From contig JANQQW010000241.1 of NCBI GenBank assembly GCA_028284885.1, positions 1-38,534 on the forward strand: a DNA stretch of 38,534 nt. The letters are read 5' to 3'. The position numbers and the translations under genes are program-made. Origin of the DNA: Planctomycetaceae bacterium (GTDB taxonomy: Bacteria > Planctomycetota > Planctomycetia > Planctomycetales > Planctomycetaceae). This document shows, piece after piece, positions 18,695 through 29,147 of the stretch; position 1 is the stretch's first letter; each line of letters opens with the position of its first letter. The notes below the pieces were generated by a model that was not told where the DNA came from, ran no database searches, and saw only the letters and a program-made list of their open reading frames with translations.

Positions 18695-18768
18695 GCACCC
18701 CTAGCTCAATTGGATAGAGCATCGGTCTACGGAACCGAAGGTTGCAGGTTCGAATCCTGCGGGGTGTA
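18695..18768 (+). tRNA. tRNA-Arg (anticodon ACG)
   Basis: The 74-nt cloverleaf is complete. The acceptor arm GCACCCC pairs with GGGGTGT (the first pair is G-U), followed by discriminator A. The D stem is GCTC/GAGC. The anticodon stem TCGGT/ACCGA (18722-18726 and 18734-18738) frames loop CTACGGA with anticodon ACG. The T arm GCAGG/CCTGC encloses TTCGAAT. CCA is not encoded. The ACG anticodon would be edited to inosine by TadA and read CGN codons. The 3' part from 18756 is the attachment core of the adjacent integrative element, and the integrase gene overlaps the tRNA on the other strand. Confidence 0.95.
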
Positions 18769-19999
18769 CTGAACAAGATGGCATTCTGTCGCGGGGCCTC
18801 GCAAGACCCTCCACTTCAAGGGGTTTCGCGGGGCTTCGCTCTTCCGGCTTCTCCTCACTGCCACAGCTTGCGGCAGGCTGCTGCACCGCTTTGGCGAAGT
18901 GGTTGTCGGTCGTGTGCAGGTAGTGCTCGCGGGCGACTTTCTCGGAGTTGCCGAGCCACTTGCAGACGACGTGTGACGGGAACTCGTCCTCGAGCTCGGT
19001 CTGCCGAGTCGCACGCAGGTTGTGGAACGGACGAGGCCAGGGCACGACGCCCGCACGGTGCACGATCTTCCGCAGCAGCGTCCCCATGTTGGAGTCCTGC
19101 TTCCGGTAGCTCGGGATGACGAACTCCGCACCCGGCTCGGCCAACTCCCAAGCCTCCTCCAGGTACGGCCGCAGTTCGGCGAAAATCGGGATGACCCGCG
19201 ACGCTCCGCCTTCGTGGTGGGCCGTCTTCGGGCTGGGAACGACGATCCGGTCCGTCTCCCAGTTCACGTCCTCCCACCGCAGTCGTAGCGACTCCGAGGG
19301 GCACCGGAGGCCACCGTAGCGGGACAGGGCGACCAGCAGCCGCCACTCGGCGGACGGGCAGGCTTCAATCACTTCGTCGATGACGCGCCGAGTGACGAAC
19401 CGGAACTTGTCCGGGTTCGATCGGACGGTGCCCGGGAGCTTGGTGAACGGGTTCGACTCGACGAGTTCGTGCTCGACGGCCGCGGCGAAGAACTGCCGTG
19501 CCTTCTTGCAGCGGTCGTTGACCGTGTTCTGCATCAACGGCTTCCCGCCGACCGCTCCCTTCTCGAAGAGCCAGAGCCGCCACTCGCGAGCCTGGCCGGC
19601 GGTGATGTCCCGCAGGCCGCGGTCCGCTCCGAAATATTCGACGAGGCAGTCTCGCGTCCGTTCGAAGATCAGCCGTGTTCGTTCCTTCACGTCGGTCCGC
19701 TTGGCGATGTAGTCGTCGACGAACGCCGCGAGCGTGGCCCGATGCCGAGGAGCAAGGAGGCCGACGGCGACGAGCCGCTCGTGGAGTCGGTCATCGATCC
19801 CGACGAGCCACCGGCTCGTTTCGTCGTCGGGAGCATGGTCTGCGATCTTCGCCGCGCTGAGTCGCTCGACGTGGAGCCGCACGGTCTCGGCGATCCGCTT
19901 CGAGACCTTGCCCAGGCGGATGCTCCGACGCTTCCCGTCGGCGCAGACCAGCTGCACCGTCCGGTGCCCGTTCTTGCGATTCACACAGATGCTGGCCAT
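18701..19999 (-). CDS. int: Tyrosine recombinase (integrase), C-terminus read from the tRNA gene
   Basis: The site-specific recombinase inserts and excises the element at tRNA-Arg. In 432 residues, an N-terminal arm-binding region and a core-binding domain (about 88-190) precede the catalytic domain. The catalytic residues are GGLRCPSE (R232), SPKT (K258), HNLR (H326, R329) and the nucleophile REHY (Y360), all present. After residue 415 the sequence reads FEPATFGS and on to a stop. This is the antisense strand of the tRNA gene, so the natural tail has been exchanged on integration (see 28944-29147). The ATG at 19999 lies inside the xis gene, with GGGAG upstream, giving a 19-base overlap. The gene is likely co-translated with rep and xis. 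Confidence 0.93.
   Translation of the reverse strand: MASICVNRKNGHRTVQLVCADGKRRSIRLGKVSKRIAETVRLHVERLSAAKIADHAPDDETSRWLVGIDDRLHERLVAVGLLAPRHRATLAAFVDDYIAKRTDVKERTRLIFERTRDCLVEYFGADRGLRDITAGQAREWRLWLFEKGAVGGKPLMQNTVNDRCKKARQFFAAAVEHELVESNPFTKLPGTVRSNPDKFRFVTRRVIDEVIEACPSAEWRLLVALSRYGGLRCPSESLRLRWEDVNWETDRIVVPSPKTAHHEGGASRVIPIFAELRPYLEEAWELAEPGAEFVIPSYRKQDSNMGTLLRKIVHRAGVVPWPRPFHNLRATRQTELEDEFPSHVVCKWLGNSEKVAREHYLHTTDNHFAKAVQQPAASCGSEEKPEERSPAKPLEVEGLARPRDRMPSCSVHPAGFEPATFGSVDRCSIQLS
18756..18772. repeat. attL core (tRNA side)
   Basis: CCTGCGGGGTGTACTGA begins in the T-stem 3' strand of tRNA-Arg and ends four bases past the discriminator. It is identical to 29131-29147. The similarity extends imperfectly leftward (29 positions with 3 mismatches from 18744 and 29119). 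In the integrase frame the core encodes SVHPAG. Confidence 0.85.
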
Positions 20000-20211
20000 T
20001 CGCCGCTCCCCTCTCCACGGTCCTTGCTTGACTCGATGTACTCGTCGAGGTCGCGACGATCGTAACGCACGGATCGTCCGATCCGGACGCACGGAATCGG
20101 GCCGCGCGGGGCCGTCCGATACCAAAGTGTCCGCTCGCACAGGCCGAGGTACTCGGCCGCCTGGGCGATCATCAACAGGGCCGCGCCCGGTGTGCTATTC
20201 GTTGCTGGCAT
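19981..20211 (-). CDS. xis: Excisionase-type helix-turn-helix protein
   Basis: The 76-residue protein has a MerR-like/HTH_17 fold of the excisionase class. LLMIAQAAEYLGLCERTLWY forms the helix-turn-helix, then CVRIGRSVRYDRRDLDEYIES forms the wing and last helix. Such proteins bend att-site DNA to favour excision and often regulate the integrase operon. The ATG at 20211 has AAGGAAGAG upstream. The start overlaps the end of rep by 17 bases and the stop overlaps int by 19 bases, so the three genes form a translationally coupled cassette. Confidence 0.88.
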   Translation of the reverse strand: MPATNSTPGAALLMIAQAAEYLGLCERTLWYRTAPRGPIPCVRIGRSVRYDRRDLDEYIESSKDRGEGSGEWPASV

Positions 20212-28088: not shown

Positions 28089-28757
28089 TCATCGGTCATG
28101 CCGGTAGACGACGTCGACCTGTATACGCGTGGTCCCCTGGAAATGGGCCCGCGCAACGCCACGGAGCTGCAAGGTGAACGGATGCGGCACTTGTCGCTCA
28201 ACCCACACCGACTCACTCGCCGACCAAACCCCCGGAACTCGGGCGACCGCTACAGATTCACCCGGCCCCGCCAAGCCCCTGACGCGAACGGTGACGTGGC
28301 CGCGTCGGATGGCACCGGCATCGCCACCAGAGTGCAGAAGCAATCCCGTGAGTCGGAATGAACCCTCCTCGTCCAAGATCGCCCCGCAGTCGGACAGAGT
28401 GACTGGACCTGCCACGACGTCGTCGCAAACGAAGCGCTTCTCCGCCACGTCAACGGCGGTTGCCCGCTCGATCAACTCCCTCGACCGAATTCGGACTCCG
28501 GTCGCCTTGGTGTAGGTATTGACTGTGGTGCGGGTGCGGAGACGACCGTTCGGACGTGAACCTTTGACTGGAATCGCCAGTTCCGATGTGACGGTTGCCG
28601 TCGTACGACGGGGAAGCAATCCGAACTCGAGTCGCTGGTAGTCGTACCTGCACGGCACGCCGCACTTGGAACGCGTGAAGCGCATGTGCAGCGGACCAGC
28701 CATCGCGACGACAGGCAAGGTCGCAGCAAGTATCGACGCCACCAATCGAAGTCTCAT
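28089..28757 (-). CDS. Exported protein of unknown function
   Basis: The 222-residue product opens with a clear signal peptide (MRLRLVASILAATLPVVAMA). The rest is beta-rich, with RYDYQRLEFGLLPRRT, a CDDVVAGPVTLSDCGAILDE segment bearing two cysteines, and a C-terminal VQLDVVYR-like strand. No known family is evident. The ATG at 28757 was chosen because it begins the signal peptide. A weak GGTGG lies upstream. It is the first gene of the exported three-gene set read towards the integrase. Confidence 0.65.
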   Translation of the reverse strand: MRLRLVASILAATLPVVAMAGPLHMRFTRSKCGVPCRYDYQRLEFGLLPRRTTATVTSELAIPVKGSRPNGRLRTRTTVNTYTKATGVRIRSRELIERATAVDVAEKRFVCDDVVAGPVTLSDCGAILDEEGSFRLTGLLLHSGGDAGAIRRGHVTVRVRGLAGPGESVAVARVPGVWSASESVWVERQVPHPFTLQLRGVARAHFQGTTRIQVDVVYRHDR

Positions 28758-28943
28758 GTCACACCACCGTTTGGTTCCCAACAGTCTCGTATTCGGCAAT
28801 GGCAGCATGCTCCATCAAATGCGGTCCACTCGCCCGCGCAATCACGCAGACGGGGAGAACAGCAACGGACCGAATAGCTGAACCAGCGAATACAGAACAT
28901 GGCCCTGCATCCTACAAACTCGACTCGCTCAACAACCTCCGCG

Positions 28944-29147
28944 TCACGTCGCATTTGCCGACCTGGCAACCATGTCCACGATCGCAGAACGTGTGGAGGG
29001 GGAGAGCGAGGCCCAGTGCGCGACGAGACGGAGAAGGTCGTGGTCGACTGCACCGGAGTCTGCACCTCTCTCGAGGGCATTCATCACCTTAACGGTGTGA
29101 GCAGTGGAGGTTGTGACAGCAGGTTCAACACCTGCGGGGTGTACTGA
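28944..29147 (-). other. int: Displaced 3' coding segment of the integrase gene
   Basis: Reading the minus strand from the att core at 29147 in the integrase frame gives SVHPAG and then 61 further codons ending in TGA at 28944. The tail begins VEPAVTTSTAHTVKVMNALE and ends with a helical stretch (LLRLVAHWASLSPSTRSAIV, then DMVARSANAT). Joining the two island ends by recombination in the core makes a continuous gene of 476 codons. The LxxxxxxWxxLxxxxRxxIxxMV spacing is one I associate with the C-termini of planctomycete integrases. In the integrated state this segment has no start codon or ribosome site of its own in this frame. Confidence 0.75.
29131..29147. repeat. attR core (distal end)
   Basis: CCTGCGGGGTGTACTGA is identical to the attL core at 18756-18772. 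To its left the element supplies GCAGGTTCAACA, so a T-arm-like hairpin is kept although the loop differs from the tRNA. To its right the chromosome resumes. Confidence 0.85.

Follow-up and report, generated by a model that had tools for sequence, protein, structure and literature searches.

The locus analysed here raises the question of what becomes of an integrase gene whose 3' part carries the attachment site: does insertion exchange one C terminus of the enzyme for another, and does the exchange affect the reaction? The window, which is the whole stretch of DNA that was analysed, is 38,534 nucleotides long (Planctomycetaceae bacterium, assembly GCA_028284885.1, contig JANQQW010000241.1) and is part of a 6.47-Mb, 399-contig genome (G000:C204). 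Its relevant features are as follows.

18695..18769, plus strand: tRNA-Arg(ACG), the target gene, intact, at the attL end (ARAGORN)
18701..19999, minus strand: int gene, integrated form, 432 aa, stop at 18701-18703 (ORF; PF00589, E 8.7e-13)
18704..18755, minus strand: swapped C terminus of the integrated form, antisense through the tRNA (ORF and core repeat)
18756..18772: 17-bp core, tRNA end (attL; exact repeat)
18773..29130: island body between the cores (core positions)
18870..18887, minus strand: putative P arm repeat GGTGCA-GCAGCC-TGCCGC in the int linker (perfect pairs in relatives)
19981..20211, minus strand: HTH_17 gene overlapping the int start (domain match, overlap)
28944..29130, minus strand: native int tail, 61 codons and stop, in frame via the core (join; conserved in relatives)
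28950..29042, minus strand: region coding for the predicted helical hairpin, tail residues 36-66 (AlphaFold2; codon pattern)
29049..29066, minus strand: putative P' arm repeat GGTGCA-GACTCC-GGTGCA (GGTGCAGACTCCGGTGCA) in the tail (repeat comparison)
29131..29147: 17-bp core, far end (attR; exact repeat)

The integrated int gene starts with an ATG at 19999, runs on the minus strand through the core and antisense into the tRNA, and encodes 432 aa with the C-terminal end VHPAGFEPATFGSVDRCSIQLS, the last 17 residues being coded by the tRNA. The protein matches PF00589 (E 8.7e-13, above the cut-off; Pfam match at residues 203-367) and PF13102, as well as a PHROG integrase (1.8e-36). The Phage_integrase catalytic domain, the flanking direct repeat of the tRNA 3' end and the intact tRNA at one end are those of a tRNA-targeting tyrosine recombinase. 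The core, CCTGCGGGGTGTACTGA, is repeated exactly over 17 bp at 18756-18772 and 29131-29147. Similarity of the two core regions extends beyond this as an imperfect match (GCAGGTTC...), and the exact exchange point is therefore not fixed. When int is joined to the far end via the core, the product is 476 aa long, ends in VHPAGVEPAVTTST...HWASLSPSTRSAIVDMVARSANAT and stops at the TGA at 28944-28946. The earlier note had described an int gene running antisense through the tRNA with 17 tRNA-derived residues, a 61-codon frame from the attR core to a TGA at 28944, and an uninterrupted 476-codon gene on joining the ends through the identical core; the 432-aa ORF (with 18704-18755), the ORF at the far end and the join bear out all three.

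In the integrated state the tail ORF lies about 9 kb from int. Under a dinucleotide model, a 61-codon open frame is expected at this site with a chance of 0.23; the single locus is therefore weak evidence, and relatives are needed. The window's own assembly was searched for the joined circle (attP) and the empty-site junction, and neither was found.

The tail in related elements

Of 198 related genomes, 140 contain homologues of the joined protein. Scanning GTDB genomes turned up 466 relatives, of which 80 were kept. Nearly all of these are planctomycete records (one is labelled Aquabacterium and one only 'bacterium'), and they include Adhaeretor mobilis, Lacipirellula limnantheis and Aeoliella straminimaris. 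An opposite-strand tRNA overlaps the int 3' end or lies near it in 66 of the 80, the tRNAs including Val, Leu, Ala, Asn, Phe, Glu, Gln and SeC. The genome of the window itself carries two further elements (G000:C115 and G000:C289), at tRNA-Val and tRNA-Ala, both with tails in frame.

Used alone as a query, the tail gave weak matches only; a 15-row tail profile was built from these and searched in the same genomes. Among int/tail pairs no more than 100 kb apart on one contig, the tail shared the strand of int and lay to its 5' side in 30 of 32, and it was on the opposite strand in 0 of 32 (about seven of the paired tails are profile seeds, and the remainder are not). Where a pair had a core of 14-57 bp, the joined tail was in the int frame in 26/26 and open in 25/26; these counts take the second-listed repeat (the tRNA core) for G051, whose first-listed repeat belongs to the linker, and become 25 in frame and 24 open if the first one is used. 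No core of 11 bp or more was found for the pair in G131. Past the core, the int frame is open for 51-89 codons in 24 elements, and the other frames for 0-100 and 0-54 codons, mostly far shorter. The earlier note had named non-coding or frame-disrupted homologues of 28944-29130 as evidence that would tell against its idea; the tail homologues are coding and in frame across many elements. The position of the predicted attachment site within the end of int, and the tail swap expected on insertion, are conserved across many planctomycete elements.

Exceptions were also observed. In the complete genomes that the profile did not match, the attR of G004 and of three elements in G170 shows a core of 22-24 bp but lacks the tail. 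Over the complete genomes sampled, an in-frame tail was present at about 11 of 16 confident attR sites, by a rough and not fully blind count. The frame is broken in L230, G015:C15, G093:C39 and G170:2351057. In L230, G015:C15 (where int stops just before the core) and G170:C1:2351057, either int stops before the core or the tail is in another frame; these elements are probably decayed, or differently arranged. Weak tblastn matches to the tail on Sinorhizobium plasmids were rejected, as the two that were examined lie inside ORFs of 340-357 codons with no integrase or tRNA nearby. A search of an annotated phage collection found no relatives.

The virus contigs L137, L142, L154, L147, L159 and L162 carry int and tail as one ORF, and no tRNA was found in them. 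The uncut ORF of L137 encodes 496 aa (tail profile E 6e-19), that of L153/L154 492 aa (4e-19) and that of L141/L142 504 aa (2e-16); L147, L159 and L162 gave weaker matches to the profile. Where a tRNA lies at the int 3' end, in contigs L136, L140 and L149, there is no tail. The L137 contig has an exact end repeat of 119 bp, which is a sign of a circle, and the L142 and L159 contigs have end repeats of 44 bp (exact) and 154 bp (98.7%). L137 reads PPRGVEQ, compared with PPRGVEP in an integrated relative. An end repeat or permutation overlap was also looked for in the G198 and G204 contigs; none was found, and circularity is not supported for either. The in-frame coding tails in relatives and the uncut virus genes, one of them on a contig with circle-like ends, support at the sequence level the proposal that int on the free circle codes for a longer enzyme ending in a helical tail, which integration replaces. 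Two apparently fused int and tail genes in the draft genomes G093:C39 and G060:C331 were set aside as frame-broken or stop-interrupted.

Putative arm-type repeats and the predicted helical hairpin

The tail has two layers, a putative DNA site (the GAESGA stretch) and then a predicted helical hairpin. Beneath GAESGA lies GGYGCA-GAATCC-GGYGCA, in which third codon positions are conserved. The hexamers change together, to AACGCA twice in G069 and to GACGCA twice in G039. The int linker contains the same element-specific repeat some 105-150 nt ahead of the core, and there it (GTGCAGAATCCGGTGCAG) is read in a different frame as VQNPVQ. An identical tandem pentamer is common to both arms in 17 of 24 elements, so that matching direct repeats in both arms, as in a lambda-like attP, are present family-wide; the control values were a mean of 6.2 (maximum 12 of 1000) for mismatched arms and 0.13 (maximum 2) for codon-shuffled arms. 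In the L162 virus contig both arms contain GACGCGCATTCCGACGCG. In the window the second repeat copy of the P arm is degenerate, leaving one good hexamer, and only the P' arm pair is perfect. The GGYGCA repeats look like arm-type sites to which Int would bind, and since matching putative sites lie on both sides of the core, the entire attP would lie in int coding DNA.

The earlier note had regarded the tail as the native protein end of the integrase. This view holds for the hairpin, which is under protein-level constraint, but part of the conserved tail is a candidate DNA arm-type site. The W of the hairpin is invariant, and the L at W+3 is invariant in 24 tails and written with five codons. 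The L residues at W-7 and W+3 are almost or fully invariant with a third-position entropy of 1.3-1.9 bits. At the hydrophobic positions the second codon position is nearly fixed and the third nearly random, which argues for constraint on the protein. For the tail alone, AlphaFold2 predicted helices at residues 36-43 and 50-66; the block pLDDT reached values of 97-98. The model of full-length L137 begins with a three-stranded sheet and a helix at the N terminus, the part through which Int would bind the arm repeats in a lambda-like organisation. Ordered domains follow as far as residue 369, residues 372-459 are predicted to be disordered, and a confident hairpin occupies 458-492. Disorder in the region of the P arm and core implies that this is the part a protein can best spare. 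The catalytic domain is intact in the integrated form, and only the tail beyond it is lost. One close pair gave a dN/dS of about 0.7 in the tail and 0.06 in the body, a comparison over 66 codons that is uninformative for the tail. A fold search of the PDB with the hairpin gave no match, and no family for the tail was found in Pfam or PHROGs.

Hairpins of this kind were also seen in other proteins. L326 and L327 (G150:C2 and G159:C6) are tyrosine recombinases of another family, with uncut ORFs of 431-439 aa and the same hairpin end. In L328, L330 and L331 the hairpin follows the antisense-tRNA-like peptides GCGFKSHLRY, PRWTRTINPLIKS and GFDSHRRH, which suggests tails left at attR by integrases of other families, in a further planctomycete family (f2). 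L329 (G033:C130) has the hairpin at the end of an ion-channel-like protein, and given this protein the hairpin may be a general planctomycete C-terminal module.

Comparison with known systems

The earlier note stated that integrases overlapping their own attP are known elsewhere, and phage Mx8 is such a case in the passages on it in PMC4383910, PMC6070905 and PMC4701971. The Mx8 attP is situated inside int, and on integration 13 residues take the place of 112, the enzyme then having an altered, lower activity (passages on Mx8 in PMC4701971 and PMC6070905). The passage on Islander in PMC4383910 describes the integrases of Mx8 and SSV as extending across attP. The Mx8 principle was published in 1996 (Tojo et al. 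1996; Magrini et al. 1999; as cited in the passages on Mx8 in PMC4383910, PMC6070905 and PMC4701971). Common to Mx8, as these passages describe it, and the island, as we read it, are an attP that falls inside the reading frame of a tyrosine integrase, beyond its catalytic part, and a long C terminus that becomes short; Mx8 Int also contains an antisense-tRNA-like peptide, STGLEPVLLGSF. Homology to Mx8 Int was not detected (BLASTP E 0.13; no match to the tail profile), and the island differs from Mx8 in having a family-wide trait, a conserved hairpin, matching repeats in both arms and many tRNA genes. We propose that the island integrase works like that of Mx8, and do not file it as an Mx8 relative. 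In the Mx8 sequence (L325, AF396866; int at 5085-6809) a tandem repeat with an 11-bp period (TGTGACAGCGG) lies inside the coding region, and given this repeat the attP arms of Mx8 may also be embedded in int.

Archaeal SSV-type suicidal integrases are like the island in that the target lies within the integrase gene and the gene is split between the element ends, but in them the split takes away the catalytic part, and the resulting pieces are reported to be inactive (PMC8371274), whereas the island would lose only the tail after the catalytic domain. According to this review, recombinases that disrupt their own gene occur exclusively in archaea (PMC8371274). In the window int the break is at residues 410-415 and the Pfam match at 203-367, so that the catalytic domain is not split off, and the Phage_integr_3 domain (PF16795) of the SSV type is absent among its Pfam matches. 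Integration-dependent immunity in mycobacteriophages is a switch in which attP lies in a coding gene and integration alters the C terminus of the protein, the altered protein being the repressor and not the integrase. Streptococcal ICEs at rumA, as described in the passage on them in PMC4701971, differ from the island in that they have serine integrases and target a protein gene, not a tRNA. A C-terminal swap by integration is thus already known from the Mx8 accounts; what appears to be new is its conservation as the trait of a large planctomycete family, the hairpin tail and the fully embedded attP. A literature search for earlier planctomycete cases found none, a weak negative since subscription papers were mostly outside the search.

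A possible switch and its alternatives

At a probability of roughly 0.6, we favour the explanation that the island is a tRNA-Arg-targeting mobile element whose attP, made up of P arm, core and P' arm, occupies the 3' portion of int, and that it has a switch-like mechanism. The disordered linker that follows the catalytic domain would hold the P arm and core, and the first part of the tail the P' arm; the tail would end in the hairpin. In the free circle int would be one 476-codon gene. Crossover at the core would leave codons 1-415 at the tRNA end and carry the tail to the other end, and the integrated gene would then read 17 antisense-tRNA codons and stop. The full-length enzyme would be made in the circle, where the hairpin could act before or during integration, for example through protein contacts in the synaptic complex. 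Without the hairpin the enzyme would still be complete in its catalytic part, but weaker or tuned differently. This shortened enzyme could stabilise the inserted state until an excisionase, for which the HTH_17 gene is the candidate, acts, as reported for Mx8, and excision would restore the full gene. The frame, its conservation, the family-wide matching of arm repeats and the natural uncut genes are demonstrated by the sequences. By analogy with Mx8, and from the protein-level conservation of the hairpin, we infer that the integrated and circle forms differ in activity or directionality.

The swap could also be real and of no regulatory effect, int overlapping attP for compactness, the hairpin being a general module and both forms recombining alike. 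The catalytic domain intact in both forms would suit this, as would the occurrence of the hairpin at the end of unrelated proteins, including the ion-channel-like one, a tail that evolves fast in one pair, and elements that have no tail at all. However, the hairpin is constrained as protein across 24 diverse tails and so matters at some stage, and the passage on Mx8 in PMC4701971 describes forms that differ in activity; we consider an effect-free swap unlikely, if still a serious competitor. Much less probable is that the hairpin acts as a brake or instability signal, so that the enzyme made from the circle would be weaker than that made from the inserted gene. Stability might respond to a changed C terminus, and the sequences do not fix the direction of any effect. 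Against this, the last residues of the native tails are polar or charged and vary between elements, no end resembling a degradation tag is common to them, and the effect in Mx8 has the opposite sign.

It would be more surprising still if the conserved right end were a DNA arm site only, with an incidental open frame. GAESGA is indeed conserved at the DNA level and the window frame is open by chance at p 0.23, but the frame match in 26/26, the synonymous codon variation in the hairpin and the uncut genes speak against such an origin. That the right-end ORF is a small gene independent of int, as its distance of about 9 kb when integrated might suggest, hardly deserves consideration, since it is in frame via the core in all pairs and fused into a single ORF in the uncut virus contigs.

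The favoured switch may extend beyond this island. We regard it as possible, though with more doubt than conviction, that planctomycetes have a general device in which a full attP lies in the int linker and tail and insertion reversibly removes a direction-setting hairpin. If true, the insertion state would be a built-in, gene-encoded switch common to many elements and several integrase families. Matched long and short natural forms of one enzyme at many tRNAs make it testable whether insertion tunes its own reversal. The arrangement also predicts both ends of planctomycete islands, with int at the tRNA and the tail profile at attR.

Besides int, the HTH_17 gene at 19981-20211 (minus strand) probably encodes an excisionase and is likely to be translationally coupled to int. 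A 1362-codon island ORF at 23091-27179 (minus strand) has only a sub-threshold match to Secretin (E 0.011). The other larger island ORFs tested matched no Pfam family above the cut-off.
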